NCBI GenBank assembly: GCA_944332225.1 | Contig: CALVJO010000013.1 | Span: 1 to 43,728 of the forward strand | DNA: 43,728 nt | Direction of reading: 5' to 3' | From: an uncultured Bacilli bacterium | Lineage (GTDB): Bacteria; Bacillota_I; Bacilli_A; RFN20; CAG-449 | Part shown: positions 19,064 to 28,864 of the stretch, piece by piece | Position numbering within the stretch: the first letter of the stretch is position 1 | Layout: every line of letters begins with the position of its first letter | The notes under the pieces: model-generated | What the model was told of the DNA's origin: nothing | Databases searched by the model: none | Seen by the model: only the letters and a program-made list of their open reading frames with translations | Position numbers and translations under genes: made by a program

Positions 19064-19645
19064 TTAAGCAATTTTATCTGTGATTTCTAGAGAGAATGTT
19101 AATTGTAAGTTAAAGCTTGTAACTCTTTCTAATTCTGTAACCATAGCATCATATTGAGCATATGATTGAGGTTTCTGAACATAAGAGAACACTAAAGGAA
19201 TTTCAATTGAGGTATGTTCACCATCTAATTGTCCTGTAACTTGATTCTTCTCTTCATTTACTTCAACATAAGTACTTACTGTACCATCAGTAATAGCAAG
19301 ATCAATTGTGTAATCAAAATTAAACATGCTAAATGAGGTTGAATCATAATGTTCAATTTGAACATCAAGAACAGTTTTAGTAATTACAGCATCTTCAGCG
19401 TCATATACTGAAATTCCTGCATCAGGATTAGTCATATTAGCGACTCCACCTTGATCTAAATAAAGTGAGAAGGTAGTATCTGTAAGAGTTAATTTATAAC
19501 CATCGATTGCTGGAGCAGGTTCAATAGTTCCAGTTAAATTATTAACAATAGGTTCAACTGTAAAGACAAAAGCTGAAAATCCGGATCCAACGATTAAAGC
19601 TGATCCTAAGATAGGTAGCATAGCTACTAAAAGTTTTTTATTCAT
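19064..19645 (-). CDS. secreted protein with SipW-type signal peptide (small paralog C)
   Basis: 193 residues. The N-terminus MNKKLLVAMLPILGSALIVG, then SGFSAFVFT, is the pattern of TasA/CalY-like proteins cut by SipW-type peptidases. The mature part is acidic, Thr/Val-rich and beta-predicted, without cysteine. It shares LDQGGV (63-68) and a late KPxxYxxYxxM element with the 19679 gene, and ends in alternating hydrophobic residues (LQLTFSLEIT). By analogy with TasA it may form extracellular fibres, but overall similarity to TasA itself is not visible. It is the last gene of the operon, 33 bases after its neighbour, with AAGGAG upstream of the start. Confidence 0.75.
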   Translation of the reverse strand: MNKKLLVAMLPILGSALIVGSGFSAFVFTVEPIVNNLTGTIEPAPAIDGYKLTLTDTTFSLYLDQGGVANMTNPDAGISVYDAEDAVITKTVLDVQIEHYDSTSFSMFNFDYTIDLAITDGTVSTYVEVNEEKNQVTGQLDGEHTSIEIPLVFSYVQKPQSYAQYDAMVTELERVTSFNLQLTFSLEITDKIA

Positions 19646-19678: not shown

Positions 19679-20332
19679 TCAGGCACGATCAGAAATAGTA
19701 ATAGATGCATCAAAAGTAAGCTCTACAGCATTAGTAAGTCCAGCATAATAGCTGCTCATACTATTATATGTAGAAGCATCAGTTGGTTTTTTATCAGTCG
19801 CATAATGGAATACTTTTCCATCATCAGCAGTTGCATCTAAAGTGAAAGTGAAAACGTCTCCACTGTATGTGTAAGATAGATTACCCTCTGTAACTTTCAC
19901 GCCACTTTCTTGTAATTTAATACCAGAACCGGAAATACTTCCACTGCTTCCATTAGCTAAAGTAATGTAAGTTTCACCTTTAGTTATAGAAAGAGAGTAT
20001 TCTAAGGTAATATCATAAAGACTTAAATTAATGTTAGCATCTTTAGTCAAAGTGAAAGTGAATGCATCATCGTCATTATCTAAAGATGAACTAATTCCTG
20101 TAGCAACCTCAGTGTTATTAACTCCACCTTGATCAAGCGTTAATGTGAAATTTGTAACACCACCTGTCCATTCAAATTCCATTGTTTCAACAATGTCAGT
20201 TACTTTGACAGTTCCATTTAATTTTTGTTCTAAAGCAGCTGAGTTTGTAAACACCCATGCAGAGTAAGCGGATCCTACCATTACAACCGCGCCTAGTAAT
20301 GGAAGTAATGTGATTAATAATTTCTTTCTCAT
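19679..20332 (-). CDS. secreted protein with SipW-type signal peptide (small paralog B)
   Basis: 217 residues. The signal region MRKKLLITLLPLLGAVVMVG, then SAYSAWVFTN, closely matches that of the 19064 gene. The mature protein is rich in Thr, Ser, Gly and Asp with short alternating hydrophobic stretches, as in beta-sandwich fibre subunits. It contains LDQGGV (66-71) and KKPTDASTYNSM, both shared with its sibling. It ends TFDASITISDRA. There is no sortase motif, lipobox or second membrane helix, so retention at the surface would need polymerisation or binding to a partner. Strong AAGGAGG upstream. A hairpin at 20379-20402 separates it from the peptidase gene. Confidence 0.75.
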   Translation of the reverse strand: MRKKLLITLLPLLGAVVMVGSAYSAWVFTNSAALEQKLNGTVKVTDIVETMEFEWTGGVTNFTLTLDQGGVNNTEVATGISSSLDNDDDAFTFTLTKDANINLSLYDITLEYSLSITKGETYITLANGSSGSISGSGIKLQESGVKVTEGNLSYTYSGDVFTFTLDATADDGKVFHYATDKKPTDASTYNSMSSYYAGLTNAVELTFDASITISDRA

Positions 20333-20406: not shown

Positions 20407-22293
20407 TTAATTTCTAATATTAGAATCATCAGATTCTATATCAGTATTTTCTTCGTTTGAAGACTTATCAATTGTAGATTTATCTTCACTTTGTTCGTCA
20501 GTTGAAACTTCATAAACATCATTAGTTGATTCACTATTTAAATCAGCTTCAGTCAATATTTCTTCGTTAGAAGATTCGTCATCAGTTGGTTCAACTATCG
20601 TTTCTTCTTGATCAGATGAATCATCGTTCGTTGTTTCACTTTCTGATTCATCTTCTATTGATTCAACAGTATCTTCTTGAGAATCATTTACTGATTCATC
20701 ATTAGAATTTAATGTCTCTTCATCCTGAGATACTTCATCAATAGTATTTTCAAAATCATTAATTGAATCATTATCTAGTGATTCATTATCAATATTGTCA
20801 TTGGCGTCTTCAGCCGTTACATCATTTTCATTTAATTCTAGTGCTTCTTCACTTAATGAAATATCTTCTAATGAATCTTCAGCTTCATTTAATTTATCGC
20901 CTTCAATGATCTTTGATTCTTCTTTAACTAATCCATTGTCACGAAGCATCATATCGATTAAATTCTTAGCTCTCTTGAGAGATAAATCGGATCTAATTCT
21001 AAAGTAGATAGGTACCTCAGAATATTTAATCTTGTTATCCTCTTTGACATGAAGTATCTCACGTTGAACTTCTAATAAATCTAGTTTAATATGCATGATT
21101 AATGACTTACCACGAATCGTTAAAACCACATATTTAACTCTCTTTTTACGATAAGTATCGCAGGAATTAGAAACTCTAGAACGAAGTCCATTCATTAATA
21201 AATAGTTTTTAAGAATATAATATTTACTTTGTAAAGCTTCATCCGCGCGAGCTAATCTTTCTTTAAAGGTATAACGCTTTTCCTCTTGTTCAATTAATCT
21301 AGAGTCAATTAAATCATCTAAAACTTCAACTAATGGAATAACTGCTTTTTGATGAACCTCATCGATTCGATTCAAAGTGTTATAGTCAATATTAGGATAA
21401 ATCGCTACTTTTCTAGCTTCGATATGTTTGCTTAAAGCCATATCAAATAAGTCATAGATAATAATTAACAATATAGCTAAAGTAAAAGTGATAATTCCTA
21501 TGTTGCTTCTAACATAATTGATAGTTAATCCTAATCCAAAGTTAGAATAGCCATTATATTTACAAACTAATTGATCGATAGTTAAATTACGTTCCTCGGT
21601 GCTAGAAGTAAGGTTAGAATCACCTCTTAAAGTGTATAAAGTCTCACCGTCTTCTCCAACATCAATAGCGATGATTCTATGGATGATTAATTGATCATTG
21701 TCATTATAGTAGCCGACTATATCATATTGAGAAAGGTCATCTTCGCTTTCAATAGGAGTGACTCCAATAAGTGACATAGGAGCAATTTGGTCATCTAAAT
21801 TATTATCAAATAGATAAGTATTGTTTTCATTTTTCTCTTCCATTGAACCAGTTTGAATTACTACATAAGCTGTATCGCCTAGATAGAATAAATCACCTTG
21901 GCTTCTTACATAGATAGAAGTAGCCATAATTCCGATGAAAACTAAAGCAAAGATAAATAAGATTACATTAAAGATAGCCCTAAAGAAACTATGCATTTTC
22001 TTGGTTTTCTCAGCATGAGAAGATATTGAATAGAAAGTATCATATTTTTTTCTCTTAGAAAGGTGAACATTATTAATAAACTCATCATTATTTTTAAAAT
22101 ATGATTTGTGTTCTAAATGAACATCTTTATTAATATTTTGATCTTCTAATTCGTTATCAATGCACTTTTTATAATAGTTAAAATAAATAGCAAAAAGACT
22201 AACCAATGTTATAAAGAGCAAGCAAATTACTACGACAGAAATCGTAAATGAGATATTTTCAATTTTTTGTACTGATGAAAGTGTTATAAACAT
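20407..22293 (-). CDS. SipW/ER-type signal peptidase I fused to an extra domain and acidic tail
   Basis: 628 residues, against roughly 190 for SipW. After an extra N-terminal helix (14-36) and a basic loop, a second helix (103-127) leads into the peptidase: catalytic Ser in QTGSM (S150), His in IIHRII (H205) and Asp in LRGDSN (D225). This is the Ser-His-Asp arrangement of archaeal/ER-type enzymes. A helix (264-284) follows. Residues about 341-457 form an added domain (KERLARADEALQSKYYILK through RAKNLIDMMLRDNGL) that I recall from many Bacillota proteins of unknown role, often in several copies. The tail (460-628) is almost all Asp, Glu, Ser, Asn and Thr. It should cleave the four secreted proteins encoded around it. 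Confidence 0.85.
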   Translation of the reverse strand: MFITLSSVQKIENISFTISVVVICLLFITLVSLFAIYFNYYKKCIDNELEDQNINKDVHLEHKSYFKNNDEFINNVHLSKRKKYDTFYSISSHAEKTKKMHSFFRAIFNVILFIFALVFIGIMATSIYVRSQGDLFYLGDTAYVVIQTGSMEEKNENNTYLFDNNLDDQIAPMSLIGVTPIESEDDLSQYDIVGYYNDNDQLIIHRIIAIDVGEDGETLYTLRGDSNLTSSTEERNLTIDQLVCKYNGYSNFGLGLTINYVRSNIGIITFTLAILLIIIYDLFDMALSKHIEARKVAIYPNIDYNTLNRIDEVHQKAVIPLVEVLDDLIDSRLIEQEEKRYTFKERLARADEALQSKYYILKNYLLMNGLRSRVSNSCDTYRKKRVKYVVLTIRGKSLIMHIKLDLLEVQREILHVKEDNKIKYSEVPIYFRIRSDLSLKRAKNLIDMMLRDNGLVKEESKIIEGDKLNEAEDSLEDISLSEEALELNENDVTAEDANDNIDNESLDNDSINDFENTIDEVSQDEETLNSNDESVNDSQEDTVESIEDESESETTNDDSSDQEETIVEPTDDESSNEEILTEADLNSESTNDVYEVSTDEQSEDKSTIDKSSNEENTDIESDDSNIRN

Positions 22294-22305: not shown

Positions 22306-24681
22306 TTAAGCACTTGGCTTATCGCAAACTACAAATATATAGTTCTTATCAACGACGAAATCTTGATAATTTTCTAATGTTATATATCTTCCAGATACAT
22401 ATTCCATTAAACATTGATTATTATTATCTAGCTCTTGAATGTATTGACCCAAAGTTCCTTGAGTACCAGCACCGCTATCGTTTAAGAAATCCATAGTAGA
22501 TGAAAGTCTAGTTCCTTGAGAAAGATTCCATATTCTTCTACTATATCCTTCATCACCATCCAAGTAATTTGGATTAATTCCACTAGCATCTTGATAAACT
22601 ATGTCATTTTCAGAATCATAAATATTGATGAACAAATCATTAAATTGATATGCATAAAGAGTGATGCTGGCCGGCTTTGATTGCACGTTATTAGAAAAAT
22701 CATATCGGTTATTAGTATCACCAAATGAAAATGGATCATAACTTACTTTAATATATAGATTATATGTTCCTGAATTATTGTATATTTCACTATCATCATT
22801 GGTTTGATAAAGCCTTGTGCCATTCGTGGATCCATCATCATTATATTCAGGTGCTTTAATTAACGAATCTGACAAATAATATTCTTCGTTTGGTGTCTCA
22901 CCTTCATAACCAACAATAATTGTCGGCCATCCTGTACCTATATTTGTATCATCATCAGTTTGCAATTGATACGTCATTCCGTCTTCAGGCAACAACTGAA
23001 CAGCAAATTTGTTATTTTCAATCACATTTTGAACACCATTATATTCAAATTCTGTACTAGTAGTTGGATCTAAATATACATCTCGTAAAATATAGTCGTT
23101 TTTTTGATCGCCCATACCAACACGAGTGAAAATGCTATCAGAATACCTATATGAATAAGTTCCAGTTGTGCCTCCAAGCAATCTAGGTTCAAATAATCTC
23201 TCATAGACAATATAATATTGCCTCGAAAAATAGTTGGAACGCCACCCATCTTGTATTCTACCACAAACTAAATCAGATAGCCGGACATCATAAATATTAA
23301 CGTTGTAGTCTTCACTATTAGCTAATGCGTAATTAATTTTATCTATTTCTCCTGCATTAATTTCTTTAGCATCTCTAAGCTGACCATAATTATCATATTC
23401 ATCAAACCATCCTCCTCCTACACTACCGATAGAAGAATCATCATTATTTGACTTAACAATAATATAAATATTATATCGACCAGACGAAATGCCTAAGTTT
23501 AATAAATGTTCGCTATATACATTATAATTATCACTACTTGAATTAAGATTTGAATTATAATAAATATGCTCGTATTGGTTATTATTCATGCTCATTCCGC
23601 TAGTTGGTGAGACTCGAGGATAAACCCAGTCAGGAGTTTCATAACTTGTTGGATCTGAAGATAAATAATAGGTGTAGTTTTGATATTCCTCTGCATCGAA
23701 AACATAATTTGTTATCGAATAAACATTAAATTTATCACCAACGGCTCGTTGTACTTCAGAAGTTAATTCACCTTCATAAGCTGCATAACCTAAAAGTTCT
23801 TTTTCATCTTTACTATCTACGCTATAGAAAGACATTTCATCTTTAATATTATTTGTCGATAAATTAATGTAATTTTTACCAATAGTATAAACTGGATAAA
23901 AGAATAAACAATTTTTTCCATCAATAGGTACAGAAAATTCATCATAAATTTCTAAAAGAGAATTAGCATAAAATGATGTGAATTGTTTTGTACTATCACT
24001 CATACTATATGTAGAAGGATAATATCCCTCAACTTTATATCCCGTTGTTGTCTCAGTTGACTCTGAGTTGTTATCAAGTCGGAAATTTCCACTTTGCAAT
24101 TGATTAGAAGTTGGCCAATTACTTACATTATTTAATGCATATACAGGTTCAGCAAAAGGAGTATAGCATAAGAAACTTATATCGTAAGCGCTGGTGCTAC
24201 TACTAGCATGATCATAAATATTTAAGGTTCGTGGTTCACCTATTTCATCAAGTTGTAGCAATGATATTTCAGCTACGTTTTCAATTTTTTTGAAGTAACG
24301 GTTATTGTCTTCATTAATATCATTAGTTAATAGATTGCCACTTCCATCATAGAAGGCTCCAAAATGAGCGTTTTGAGCATTCATTGTCGTTTCGATATTT
24401 TGATAATAATAACGATTTTCATCAAACGATACACCACGTTCAACCGACTGAGCCATAAAATATACATCGTAGTATTTAGTGCCAGTAGTTCCGGTATCAC
24501 CTTGCTCGCCAAAAACAGCATTTTGTCTAATCGGATCGGCTCTAGTTGGAACATCACTAATCTCCGTAGATGTATTCGTGTCACCAAAATAGAAATCCGC
24601 GTATCCAAAAGAGACTAACGTTCCTAAAGATAACACAGCTAGTAAGAGGACAAAGAAATACTTTTTAAAATAAAGTTTCAT
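22306..24681 (-). CDS. large secreted surface protein with SipW-type signal peptide
   Basis: 791 residues. The signal peptide (1-28: KKYFFVLLLAVLSLGTLVSF ending GYA, then DFYFGD) resembles SipW substrates. The mature part is rich in Tyr, Asn, Ser and Asp and beta-predicted. Elements such as GRYNIYIIVKSNND and GTYNLYIKVSYDPF, plus an N-terminal KYYDVYFMAQSVERG, suggest repeated beta-sandwich modules. No LPXTG, lipobox, membrane anchor or known adhesin domain is visible. It overlaps the preceding gene by one base (TAATG) and has GGAGG upstream. The position beside the peptidase suggests a matrix or adhesin subunit, possibly the anchor or tip for the small paralogs. Function unproven. Confidence 0.7.
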   Translation of the reverse strand: MKLYFKKYFFVLLLAVLSLGTLVSFGYADFYFGDTNTSTEISDVPTRADPIRQNAVFGEQGDTGTTGTKYYDVYFMAQSVERGVSFDENRYYYQNIETTMNAQNAHFGAFYDGSGNLLTNDINEDNNRYFKKIENVAEISLLQLDEIGEPRTLNIYDHASSSTSAYDISFLCYTPFAEPVYALNNVSNWPTSNQLQSGNFRLDNNSESTETTTGYKVEGYYPSTYSMSDSTKQFTSFYANSLLEIYDEFSVPIDGKNCLFFYPVYTIGKNYINLSTNNIKDEMSFYSVDSKDEKELLGYAAYEGELTSEVQRAVGDKFNVYSITNYVFDAEEYQNYTYYLSSDPTSYETPDWVYPRVSPTSGMSMNNNQYEHIYYNSNLNSSSDNYNVYSEHLLNLGISSGRYNIYIIVKSNNDDSSIGSVGGGWFDEYDNYGQLRDAKEINAGEIDKINYALANSEDYNVNIYDVRLSDLVCGRIQDGWRSNYFSRQYYIVYERLFEPRLLGGTTGTYSYRYSDSIFTRVGMGDQKNDYILRDVYLDPTTSTEFEYNGVQNVIENNKFAVQLLPEDGMTYQLQTDDDTNIGTGWPTIIVGYEGETPNEEYYLSDSLIKAPEYNDDGSTNGTRLYQTNDDSEIYNNSGTYNLYIKVSYDPFSFGDTNNRYDFSNNVQSKPASITLYAYQFNDLFINIYDSENDIVYQDASGINPNYLDGDEGYSRRIWNLSQGTRLSSTMDFLNDSGAGTQGTLGQYIQELDNNNQCLMEYVSGRYITLENYQDFVVDKNYIFVVCDKPSA

Positions 24682-25334
24682 TAGTTATTACCTCCTATAT
24701 TACTGATTGATAAATTTAAAGAAACAGTTATAGAGCAAGTGCAATTTTCACAATTATTAATAAAATCTCCATATGAAGCAGAATCTAAAGGCTTGCTTCC
24801 ATCGATCCAGTGATAAATAGGAGTAATATCCAAATTTAATCCAGAATCACTTTGAGTTTCCATAATTTGTTCATAACTTAAAACTAAGTTTTTTAGAATT
24901 GTTTCTTCTTCACCAATTCTAAATCCTTGAGGATCTAGATAATCACTGTAATCAAAAGAACAACCATCAACATTAACGATATTTGTACTTATCGAAAAAG
25001 TGATTTCCGTATTGGTTACATATGGTACATCTTTAAAATTAAGATGAAGAGATGGCATAAAAGTTATTCCTTCTTCATTTGAAGTAACTTGTTGCTCATT
25101 TCCTTCTTCAAAAACAATTCTTAAATCATGGTAAAGATTATCATCCCAAGAATAAGTAATTGTTCCTAATGAATCGTAATAAGGTTTAACGTCGACACTT
25201 TGAGAATATATTCTTTCATCGATAGTATATTCACCATTAAGAAATCCCCATAATGAAAAACCAGTTGCAATCAAAGTTGATGAAGCAACTAATGGAATAA
25301 ATATAGCAATTATAGTTCTTTTAAGTCTCAACAT
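24681..25334 (-). CDS. secreted protein with SipW-type signal peptide (small paralog A, first gene of operon)
   Basis: 217 residues. The hydrophobic leader (7-30: TIIAIFIPLVASSTLIATGF, then SLWGF) keeps the late aromatic residues of the other two small proteins. Position-equivalent but diverged elements are present: FEEGNEQQ near 75-82 where the siblings have LDQGGV, and GSKPLDSASYGDF late in the protein. It has a cluster of cysteines near the end (CENCTC) that the other two lack, so disulphide bonding or metal binding is possible. It is the first gene after the proposed phase-variable promoter. Its start has AGGGG at short spacing, which is unusual and may limit translation. Confidence 0.7.
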   Translation of the reverse strand: MLRLKRTIIAIFIPLVASSTLIATGFSLWGFLNGEYTIDERIYSQSVDVKPYYDSLGTITYSWDDNLYHDLRIVFEEGNEQQVTSNEEGITFMPSLHLNFKDVPYVTNTEITFSISTNIVNVDGCSFDYSDYLDPQGFRIGEEETILKNLVLSYEQIMETQSDSGLNLDITPIYHWIDGSKPLDSASYGDFINNCENCTCSITVSLNLSISNIGGNN

Positions 25335-25403
25335 TTACCCCTCGCTGTTGGAAATAAAAGTTAGCAAAACATTTTACCCCACTTCTTTTCGCGAACTTAA
25401 ATT

Positions 25404-25427
25404 ACTATAACCCCCCCCCGTCGTCAA
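25404..25427 (-). promoter_or_regulatory. putative phase-variable promoter of the surface-protein operon
   Basis: On the minus strand TTGACG (plus positions 25422-25427) and TATAGT (25404-25409) are separated by only 12 bases, nine of which are a run of G. Adding four or five G would give the optimal 16-17 base spacing. The predicted start is about 70 bases upstream of the first ATG. The -35 box lies in a small inverted repeat (CGTC-AA-GACG, 25422-25431). A second possible promoter (TTCAAT, 16 bases, TACAAT) lies further upstream; its transcript would cross the G-run. Confidence 0.5.
25411..25419. repeat. homopolymeric tract of nine C (nine G on the coding strand)
   Basis: A run of nine identical C in a region of roughly 25% GC, not inside any gene and with no counterpart elsewhere in the window (the six-G run near 1305 is part of a tRNA). 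Such tracts change length by slipped-strand mispairing. Confidence 0.9.
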
Positions 25428-25578
25428 GACGTCATTAAAAAAAAGAACATTAAATTGTATAAATTTGCGAAAAATATTGAATTTTGCAGGGTTTTACTGT
25501 GCAAAAATGAATTTTTTGATTATTATTTTTCAATTGTATTTAACGTTTTAATAGTAAAAAACTAATTATTAATAATGA

Positions 25579-27366
25579 TTATATAGCTACCATGTAGAAT
25601 AGAAACGAACTGATCACAAAGGTGAAAATACTAGCTAAAGAAACAAAGTTAACAATCTTAGAAAAGCTAATCATTCTAGATGATTTTATTAATAATTGAT
25701 TATCGCTTGTGATAATAGGTGTTTTTCCTTCACTAATTGAAGTTAGATTATCATCATGAATCTTTTTTCTTTCTAACATGAATTCATCAATCAAATCAAT
25801 TTGTCGACCGATAAAATAAACGCAAGGTAAGATGATAGGGACTATATATCTAAAGTCCATCGAGCAACCAAATGGCATCGATATTTGTAAATAGATAAAT
25901 AAGATGGCCATTCCTCCAATTATTGATAAGAAAGCTCCATCTTCAAAATGGAATTTCTTTTTATAGATAGAGTAGATGATGAATATGAACATCATGAAAT
26001 AGACAAAATAAATGCTAATTAAGGAGATTAAACCAAATCCTTCTCCGTTATAATAGGCAAATTCACCGAATATTGAGGATTTTAAAGCGTAAGTAAATAA
26101 ATTATAGTTATCTCCAGCATTACACCAGATAGAGAAGAAGTCAGTATAATAAAATGGTGATATAAATCTCATGATGAAGTTATAGAAACCGTTATTATAG
26201 ATGATTCCTACATTATTTTCATCGTAATAAACTATATCATTAGGTTTATTAGTAAGCACCCAATTTCTAGAACCTATAAATAATGCTGAATTTAATCGAT
26301 CGAAAACATAATTATATGGTAATCCATATACATTATGTAAATAGACGTTCCACCATAACCCTAGCGGCGCGCAGATCAATAAAAACGTCACGAATTGTAA
26401 GGTTAAATTAATAATTTTCTTTTTGTCTTTACTTAAGATAGTCTTGATATAGATGATAGTAAAGATAACTCCAATACCAAGACAGATGGTAGCTGAAGAT
26501 AATTTGCTAGCTAAAGCTAAGCCGATAAATAAGCTAGTTAGAAGAATATCTAACCACTTCATGCCTTTAAGCAACCACTTAACAAAGAAATATAAGGCGA
26601 TAAAAGAAAACATGATAGATATTCCATCGTTATTTAATTGACCTGACAATTGAGCTAGACGAGGAAATAAGGCTCCAACTAAGCAAGCAAAGATCTTAGC
26701 TTTATCTGATAAGGAAGTTAATAATATAGTCTTACAGATAAAGTAAGAAGATATAAACATATAAAAGCAGGCTAATATTTGACATGATGAATATAAATCT
26801 TCAGTTGTAGCTTTAAGAGATTCAACTGGGCATAAAGCATCAAAGATATGCATGAACACAGCTTGAACAAAAGCGTTGAATGGAGGGTGATAAAACTGAT
26901 AGATAGTATTTTCATCTATATGGTGATCTGGTAGTTTCCATGTTTCATAGATTGCTAAAGCGTAATCATAATGCGCGTCATTATTAGTTGACCAAGTATC
27001 GTGCTGCCTAGTGTGACCTGAAGTATATAGTAGATAAGTTAAATGAACGATGAAAGCTAATATTAATATAAAGATGATGGTTCTTTTAAAATCCATCTTT
27101 TGTTTATAACGTAAATAAAAATAGCTAATAGAAGTTATAGCTAAAAGGACGCATCCAACGCATCTAGCGATTGCTCCATCATCAGTCATATAGACTCGAT
27201 TCATCGGTTTAAAGATGATGTAGCAAACAAAAATAATGATGAAAGCTGCAACAAAAAGTCCTATTTCTTTAAGAATAATTAACTTATTATCTTTAAATAA
27301 TTTAGAATTACTCTGATTCGTTTGATTCGTGATAATCTTGTTCAGTGTTAACGTTGAAGACATCAT
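25579..27366 (-). CDS. polytopic membrane glycosyltransferase, GT-C / GT39-like
   Basis: 595 residues from the ATG at 27366, which has GAGGAG five bases upstream. About a dozen hydrophobic helices are visible. A large first extracytoplasmic loop contains HTRQHDTWSTNNDAHYDYALAIYETWKLPD, then YQFYHPPF. This fits GT-C enzymes, which use lipid-linked sugars and have acidic residues in this loop. A WNxYLHNVYGLPYNYV loop follows. The start lies 59 bases inside the 3' end of the oxidoreductase gene, so the two are coupled. It probably adds sugars to a surface glycan, lipid or secreted protein; the acceptor is unknown. The surface-protein operon begins 245 bases downstream. Confidence 0.7.
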   Translation of the reverse strand: MMSSTLTLNKIITNQTNQSNSKLFKDNKLIILKEIGLFVAAFIIIFVCYIIFKPMNRVYMTDDGAIARCVGCVLLAITSISYFYLRYKQKMDFKRTIIFILILAFIVHLTYLLYTSGHTRQHDTWSTNNDAHYDYALAIYETWKLPDHHIDENTIYQFYHPPFNAFVQAVFMHIFDALCPVESLKATTEDLYSSCQILACFYMFISSYFICKTILLTSLSDKAKIFACLVGALFPRLAQLSGQLNNDGISIMFSFIALYFFVKWLLKGMKWLDILLTSLFIGLALASKLSSATICLGIGVIFTIIYIKTILSKDKKKIINLTLQFVTFLLICAPLGLWWNVYLHNVYGLPYNYVFDRLNSALFIGSRNWVLTNKPNDIVYYDENNVGIIYNNGFYNFIMRFISPFYYTDFFSIWCNAGDNYNLFTYALKSSIFGEFAYYNGEGFGLISLISIYFVYFMMFIFIIYSIYKKKFHFEDGAFLSIIGGMAILFIYLQISMPFGCSMDFRYIVPIILPCVYFIGRQIDLIDEFMLERKKIHDDNLTSISEGKTPIITSDNQLLIKSSRMISFSKIVNFVSLASIFTFVISSFLFYMVAI

Positions 27367-28864
27367 CTTTGCTCCTCTTTCCATCTAAGATGTTATCGAT
27401 GCATACCATGCTAGATAGCATCGAATGATCCATATTATTGTAACGGTGCTGTCCATTTCTACCAACGCACCAAAGATTATCAATTGTATCTAAATATTTT
27501 CTAACTTTAGAAAATTCATTATATGAGCCAAAGTAAGCTGGATAGGCTTTCTTTACATGAAGCAAGCAGGAATCTAAAACATTATCTTTTGATTCAATTA
27601 TACCCATTGAAACTAGTTCATCGATAGCAAAAGATATAAACTCATCATCTTTCATGTTCCACATCGAATCACCTTCATTGCAGAAATATTCTAATCCCAT
27701 GAATACTGTGTTAATCGGATCTTTTACCATGTAAGGAGACCAATTATTAAATATTTGAATTCTACCCATTTTAACTGTTCTTTCTTGAACGTAAATCCAG
27801 TTATCAGGAACGATATTATTTAAAGTCTTAATTTTGGTTTTATTTTGAATTTTTAATTTGTTGATTAATAGTCCTACGGTTAAAAAATCTCGATATGGTA
27901 AAGTAGTTCCAACTTTATAGGCTTCATCTTCCACTTTATCTTCACCTATAGCAATTAAAAGATCCTTTATTGGCATGGATGAAATAAATTCATCTACTTT
28001 ATAGACATGATTTTGATTAGTCTCTATAGAAACTATTCTATTATCTTCAATATTGATTTTATTAACATCCTCTAAAAAGATGATTTTACCTCCTAGAGAA
28101 AGGATCTCATCAGCCATTATTTCGTATAATTGACCAGGTCCTTTTTTAGGATATTTAAATTGTTCGATTAATGAAGTTTCTACTTTACCATTCTTTTTCT
28201 TAAATGGTTTGGTTATCGCGTTAATTAAAGTCTTGCCTAGAGATAGAGATTTTACTCTTTGAGCTCCCCAATCAGGAGCAAGTTGCTCTGGGCTTACTCC
28301 CCAAAGTTTTGTGGTATAATCTTCAAAAAATAATCTATAAAGAGGTTTACCAAAGCGATTAATATAAAAATCAGCGAGAGAATTCTCTTTTCGTTTATGA
28401 AGGCATGAAGACAAATATCCAACTCCGCATTGAACGGTTCTTATAAATCCCATATTAGTGAAGGTTTTAAGTTTTAAAGAGATAGGATAATCAAAAAACT
28501 TCTTCAAAAAATAGATTCTAGAAACTCTGTGACGAAGGAGCATGACTCGATCTTCTTTTTCAGGGTCTGGCCCATTAGGAGAATAATCTTTTTTATTATC
28601 TAATATTTTATCGTCAAATGCTGGTTTTCCTTGAATAGGCATCAAGAGATCCCATAATTCATTAACCCTTTCGTTTTTAGAAAAGAAACGATGGCCTCCG
28701 ATATCCATTCGATTTCCTTTATAATTAAAGGTTCGAGATATTCCTCCTACATAAGATTCTTTTTCGATAATGGTAACATCATAATCTTGACTTCTTTTTA
28801 ACAAACTATACGCCGCGGTTAATCCTGATGGACCCGCGCCTACTATTACCACATGTTTTTTCAT
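27308..28864 (-). CDS. FAD-dependent oxidoreductase of the UDP-galactopyranose mutase / phytoene-desaturase-like superfamily
   Basis: 518 residues. The N-terminal dinucleotide-binding motif VVIVGAGPSGLTAAYSLL (about 5-22) is followed by the GG motif VGGISRTFNYKG and by DIGGHRFFSK, typical of UDP-galactopyranose mutase-like and protoporphyrinogen-oxidase-like flavoproteins found in glycan clusters. Near the end, WCVGRNGQHRYNNMDHSMLSS matches the second FAD-binding element of that group. The last ~20 codons overlap the membrane glycosyltransferase gene. A role in making or isomerising a sugar donor is inferred from this pairing. The start has GGAGAG seven bases upstream. Confidence 0.75.
   Translation of the reverse strand: MKKHVVIVGAGPSGLTAAYSLLKRSQDYDVTIIEKESYVGGISRTFNYKGNRMDIGGHRFFSKNERVNELWDLLMPIQGKPAFDDKILDNKKDYSPNGPDPEKEDRVMLLRHRVSRIYFLKKFFDYPISLKLKTFTNMGFIRTVQCGVGYLSSCLHKRKENSLADFYINRFGKPLYRLFFEDYTTKLWGVSPEQLAPDWGAQRVKSLSLGKTLINAITKPFKKKNGKVETSLIEQFKYPKKGPGQLYEIMADEILSLGGKIIFLEDVNKINIEDNRIVSIETNQNHVYKVDEFISSMPIKDLLIAIGEDKVEDEAYKVGTTLPYRDFLTVGLLINKLKIQNKTKIKTLNNIVPDNWIYVQERTVKMGRIQIFNNWSPYMVKDPINTVFMGLEYFCNEGDSMWNMKDDEFISFAIDELVSMGIIESKDNVLDSCLLHVKKAYPAYFGSYNEFSKVRKYLDTIDNLWCVGRNGQHRYNNMDHSMLSSMVCIDNILDGKRSKDDVFNVNTEQDYHESNESE

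Follow-up and report, generated by a model that had tools for sequence, protein, structure and literature searches.

A run of nine G on the minus strand of the window (the whole stretch of 43,728 nucleotides that was analyzed, from an uncultured Bacilli bacterium) lies between the hexamers TTGACG and TATAGT in front of a SipW-type surface operon, and it is likely to act as a slipped-strand phase-variable promoter element that would switch this operon by changing the gap between -35 and -10. Since similar G-runs recur in dozens of promoters of the host genome and its relatives, mostly those of genes for exported proteins, and since their lengths differ between close relatives, the element is very probably a random on/off surface switch. 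In the proposed mechanism, replication slippage would add or remove G residues between the -35 and -10 hexamers, and RNA polymerase would initiate well only at a gap of about 16-19 nt. Single cells would thereby switch the whole operon, four secreted proteins and a peptidase, between an expressed and a silent or weak state. Slippage in the host species, sigma-70-type use of the hexamers and the effect on transcription are the parts of this mechanism that we infer.

Direct reading of the locus confirmed the nine consecutive G at 25411-25419 and the 12-nt spacer of the original prediction. The plus strand reads A followed by nine C from 25410 to 25419, and the minus strand from 25435 down to 25399 reads ATGACG-TC-TTGACG-AC-GGGGGGGGG-T-TATAGT-AATTT (Table 1). 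The single T between the tract and TATAGT is likewise found in G011:C15, G043 and G044. The distance from the end of the tract to the first ATG of the operon at 25334, expected to be about 80 bases, is 77 nt. The G9 tract is the sole G/C run of at least 7 in the window, where it accounts for all three overlapping 7-mer matches, a count reached by 2 of 100 shuffles of the window. No other promoter of note with a 16-18 nt spacer was found for the operon on the minus strand between 25300 and 25620; a weak TTAAAA-18-AATAAT in this interval is at chance level. The upstream gene (25579-27384) is co-directional with the operon and a search for a terminator between the two found none, so that read-through could bypass the switch.

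Table 1. Positions of the promoter elements and operon genes in the window.
Feature	Position	Strand	Basis
G9 tract, proposed slippage (phase-variation) element	25411..25419	-	sequence; genome- and family-wide promoter-spacer association
TTGACG, candidate -35 (5/6 match)	25422..25427	-	direct reading
TATAGT, candidate -10 (5/6 match)	25404..25409	-	direct reading
ATGACG, alternative -35-like hexamer (4/6)	25430..25435	-	enumeration of pairings
TAATTT, weak alternative -10 (3/6), 17 nt from TTGACG	25399..25404	-	direct reading
GAGGGG, likely ribosome-binding site of the first gene	25338..25343	-	direct reading
First gene, 217-aa secreted protein, N-terminal signal-like helix	24681..25334	-	orthologues in G001, G002
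791-aa secreted protein	22306..24681	-	relatives in loci L021, L022, L023
SipW-like signal peptidase I, 628 aa, long C-terminal extension	20407..22293	-	NF046067 match
217-aa secreted protein, GSAYSAW-type N-terminus	19679..20332	-	sequence
193-aa secreted protein, GSGFSAF-type N-terminus	19064..19645	-	sequence

All hexamer pairings of this copy were enumerated by a script, and none was found at 16-19 nt for G9 to G12. Because the gap between TTGACG and TATAGT is 12 nt at G9, the assembled genome probably represents the OFF or a weak state, in agreement with the weak or silent promoter predicted at this length. The same hexamers reach 16-19 nt at G13-G16 (16-18 nt at G13-G15). The expectation that 13-14 G would turn the promoter on thus stands for TTGACG; it does not stand as the only solution, since the second -35-like hexamer ATGACG, 8 nt upstream of TTGACG and 20 nt from TATAGT at G9, also reaches 16-19 nt, at G5-G8 (16-18 nt at G5-G7). 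A change from G9 to 13-14 G would take 4-5 steps, a point that counts against the proposed switch. ATGACG and TTGACG are parts of an imperfect 8-bp direct repeat (TGACGTCT/TGACGACG), which makes a speculative two-window switch conceivable. The two -35-like hexamers would then share one -10 and one G-run, and the promoter would be ON via ATGACG at 5-8 G and via TTGACG at 13-16 G, with an OFF state at the lengths between them (9-12 G). We regard this version as improbable; if it holds, the switch would belong to a large poly-G promoter phasome of uncultured Bacilli that has not been described so far.

The operon itself was predicted correctly in outline, as it encodes a SipW-like peptidase together with four proteins whose N-termini are hydrophobic. 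Orthologues of the first gene product (39-41% identity) head syntenic operons in the sister species G001 and G002, which have the same gene order plus two extra small genes, and no G-run was found in the operon promoter of either. A comparable operon at locus L023 of G040, a genome of another family, has the promoter TTGACA-15-TAGAAT with G8. The 791-aa protein has no match in Pfam or NCBIfam. The peptidase matches NF046067 with E=7e-12 and 45.3 bits. The cut-off for an equivalog is 190 bits, so that the protein counts as a relative and not as an equivalog. The arrangement resembles sipW-tasA of Bacillus in that a dedicated SipW-like peptidase lies beside small secreted proteins with unusual signal peptides; it differs in the lower peptidase score and in the lack of any TasA match. 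Pfam, PDB sequence and fold searches gave no match of the small secreted proteins to TasA or camelysin; the structure models are weak and yielded no relatives, and the fold search used a beta-rich model of the 19679..20332 product of low confidence (pLDDT 67) and returned no structural match. On the basis of the signal-like N-termini, the SipW-like peptidase and the bias toward exported proteins across the whole set of tracts, the operon products are predicted to be surface-exposed.

We analyzed long G-runs in the host genome, a 1.33 Mb draft of 48 contigs in which the window is contig 13, by pattern searches. Five G-runs of at least 8 are present in all, with lengths of 9-11, while an iid model at 31% GC predicts 0.11 runs of at least nine G per genome. 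Four of the five lie between -35-like and -10-like hexamers (p ~5e-7 against random 9-bp blocks). Besides the run in the window, these are a G11 in C12 (TTGACA-17-TATATT, upstream of a 199-aa secreted-type gene), a G10 in C22 (TTGACA-16-TAAAAT) and a G10 in C44 (TTGACA-14-TATACT, upstream of the gene for an 86-aa membrane protein). The fifth run (L087, G000:C5:21000-29000, contig position 25020) is a G9 that falls in codons 25-27 of a gene for a response-regulator-like protein of 233 aa and could be a frameshift switch of a regulator.

The same association was found in the host's family, whose 18 genomes contain 82 G-runs of at least 8. Tracts were classified as promoter-type if a -35 matching at least 5/6 lay within 22 nt upstream and a -10 matching at least 4/6, including A2 and T6, lay within 3 nt downstream. 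This held for 33/82 tracts, as opposed to 1.8% of 391,894 random 9-bp blocks of the same DNA (p ~1e-35) and 0/102 runs of G5-G7. In sampled loci the shorter runs number 90 (G5), 9 (G6) and 3 (G7) per 1.18 Mb of strand, and the long runs of the family peak at G9 (34) and G10 (24), so that the length counts show no geometric fall-off. Across the order, the pattern TTGACA-N2-12-G8-N0-5-TANNNT was found in 46/279 genomes and 20/56 genera, and the reversed control pattern in 0/279 genomes; in a sample of the class, the pattern matches in 33/296 genomes and the control matches once. Homopolymer lengths can be off by one in Illumina-type assemblies, and the host genome is a 48-contig draft. An origin of the tract by chance or as an assembly artefact is nevertheless extremely unlikely and is contradicted by the reversed-pattern, short-run and random-block controls, given the recurrence in independent genomes with no reversed matches in the order, the low p values and the missing promoter association of G4-G7 runs.

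From the order, 94 promoter-type tracts with a length mode of 9-10 were collected. Their spacers cluster at 15-20 nt with a mode of 18-19 nt, though the search pattern permitted far wider gaps: one is 12 nt long, three are 14, 11 are 15, six are 16, ten are 17, 21 are 18, 26 are 19, eight are 20 and eight are 21-25 nt. The spacing of 16-17 bases originally given as the target is accordingly not the one at which the relatives peak. The mode also exceeds the 17-nt optimum; this could be explained if G-rich DNA has a smaller rise per base or if most of the tracts are in a weak state. In 76/94 promoters of the order and in 60/82 tracts of the family, coding ones included, the base immediately before the G-run is a C.

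These data also bear on the possibility that the tract varies in length and acts otherwise than by spacing, for example through melting, polymerase escape or a regulator that binds the G-run. The window holds no properly spaced hexamer pair at G9-G12, the preceding C in promoters and many coding tracts is left unexplained by spacing alone, and tprL of Treponema, in which the poly-G overlaps the -10 region and a non-spacing action has been proposed, is a documented precedent (PMC7864442). However, across the order the tract lies inside the spacer, the spacer lengths cluster at 15-20 nt, and the -10 starts immediately 3' of the tract in 60/94 promoters, and we therefore consider such an action unlikely.

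We next consider the genes downstream of the promoter tracts. The first gene encodes an exported protein, as called by a lipobox or by signal/TM heuristics, in 57/88 cases, compared with 180/641 background ORFs (28%; p 5e-11). In the order and class the targets comprise lipoproteins, SipW-type secretion operons, prepilin-like proteins and surface-polysaccharide genes. A SipW-like peptidase is encoded in 241/273 genomes of the order, and 13 promoter tracts, that of the window included, head SipW-like operons (tract within 6 kb upstream on the same strand; families f1-f4) in 7 genera, where a rough estimate gives ~0.33 expected. As judged from these gene neighborhoods, the operon of the window is one of a recurrent kind of G-run target. 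At L225, L226, L229 and L230 (G141, G157), G-run promoters precede genes with GFTLIELVVVIAVIAIL prepilin-type N-termini.

The copy in the window is atypical of the set in its geometry. None of the 94 has a spacer shorter than its 12 nt, so that this copy may be decayed or may use other hexamers; within the SipW set, only the spacer of G096 is as short. The offset from -35 to tract has its mode at 9, and is 10 for ATGACG and 2 for TTGACG, the latter unique among the 94. A decayed or fixed element, with a G-run that no longer switches and an operon transcribed from the upstream gene or from a promoter such as TTGACG-17-TAATTT, would be consistent with this offset, with the presence of TTGACG-17-TAATTT (3/6 for the -10), with the promoter of the sister species lacking a G-run and with the missing upstream terminator. 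On the other hand, G9 runs decay fast without selection at 31% GC, as the expectation of 0.11 per genome indicates, the three other promoter tracts of the host sit in good promoters, and in twelve other genomes, too, a tract heads an operon of this kind. Decay or fixation thus appears to be quite an unlikely explanation compared with a functional spacing switch.

Variation in tract length was assessed with one genome per species, and hence between relatives. The cleanest difference is found in a SipW-type operon whose orthologous promoters carry G8 in G031 and G9 in G033, with flanks identical at 57/60 and 57/60 positions without a gap, i.e., 120 flanking bases without any other indel; the spacing of these two promoters is close to optimal. 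Other orthologous promoters of unequal length are those of G204 (G10) and G212 (G9), G087 (G10) and G088 (G9), G034 (G8) and G035 (G10), and G141 (G12) and G157 (G8), and paralogous promoters inside G044 carry G9 and G8. Equal lengths were observed in G043 and G044 (both G8) and in G215 and G222 (both G10). Coding tracts independently point to slippage in the group: with flanks 99% identical, G9 in G001 leaves a 1120-aa ORF open and G8 in G002 breaks the frame after 62 aa, and the product of a restriction-modification-like gene is 862 aa long in G004 (G12) and 616 aa long in G009 (G11). Loss of mismatch repair as a mutator explanation was ruled out, as mutS1 is intact in 18/18 genomes of the family.

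Poly-G switches in promoter spacers have mainly been described from a small number of Gram-negative pathogens and spirochaetes. GTDB assigns the mycoplasmas to class Bacilli, and vlp and vmm are phylogenetically the nearest of the known systems. In vlp of Mycoplasma hyorhinis and vmm of M. mycoides, surface lipoproteins are switched by a repeat that lies in the promoter region or in the spacer (PMC10502178); in contrast to the poly-G of the window, these repeats are poly-A or dinucleotide. In porA, fetA and opc, slippage in a homopolymer tract alters the gap between -35 and -10 (PMC2791445), although the opc tract has also been placed over the -35 (PMC7864442). The element described here is similar to porA and fetA of Neisseria meningitidis, where a homopolymer of G or C in the -35/-10 spacer affects transcription of surface proteins (PMC2791445; PMC3899988), but occurs in another phylum, precedes a multigene secretion operon and has tens of counterparts in related genomes. 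With tp0126 of Treponema pallidum, an OmpW homologue, it shares a poly-G inside the -35/-10 spacer; the phylum again differs, and the spacers of our assemblies peak at 18-19 nt, compared with the measured 17-nt optimum of tp0126 (PMC7864442). The pilus switch of the gut commensal Bifidobacterium breve, measured by deep sequencing, likewise controls a surface structure by G-tract slippage, yet does so by translational frameshift within a gene and not in a promoter spacer (PMC9187656). The predicted poly-G spacer phase variation of the porA type is supported comparatively by the family excess (33/82 against 1.8%), the 94 promoters, the unequal orthologues and the SipW-type targets.

Whereas the mechanism is already known, its wide use in these Bacilli and on SipW-type operons appears to be undescribed, and no earlier report of such switches in this group was found in the open-access literature. 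Poly-G switches of this predicted kind recur in uncultured Bacilli with small genomes, being present in 46/279 genomes of a single order and also in further families of the class. The searchable motif (TTGACA, ~9 nt, C, G8-11, TATAAT) would make surface heterogeneity predictable from sequence and testable in existing metagenome reads.

Several further observations were made in the course of the searches. Family tracts lie at most 400 bp from a contig end in 11/82 cases, compared with 2.9 expected, perhaps because assemblies break at polymorphic tracts or repeated flanks; this hints at heterogeneity within populations and was not counted as evidence, since paralogous flanks explain it equally well. 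Genome G371 (another order, 1 Mb) carries 13 near-identical promoters, TTGACAAAACGCTCT-G9/G10-TAGAAT, which have near-optimal spacing and look like those of a paralogous phase-variable gene family. G-runs in restriction-modification or DNA-methyltransferase-like genes were found at L102 (G004:C21), L134 (G009:C1) and L107 (G006:C1); with an open frame at one tract length and a frameshift at another, these genes are candidates for phase-variable methylation. Finally, L109, L111, L118, L121 and L122 (G007, G008) contain G9-10 runs inside lipoprotein genes shortly past the lipobox, where slippage would cut the protein right after its export signals.
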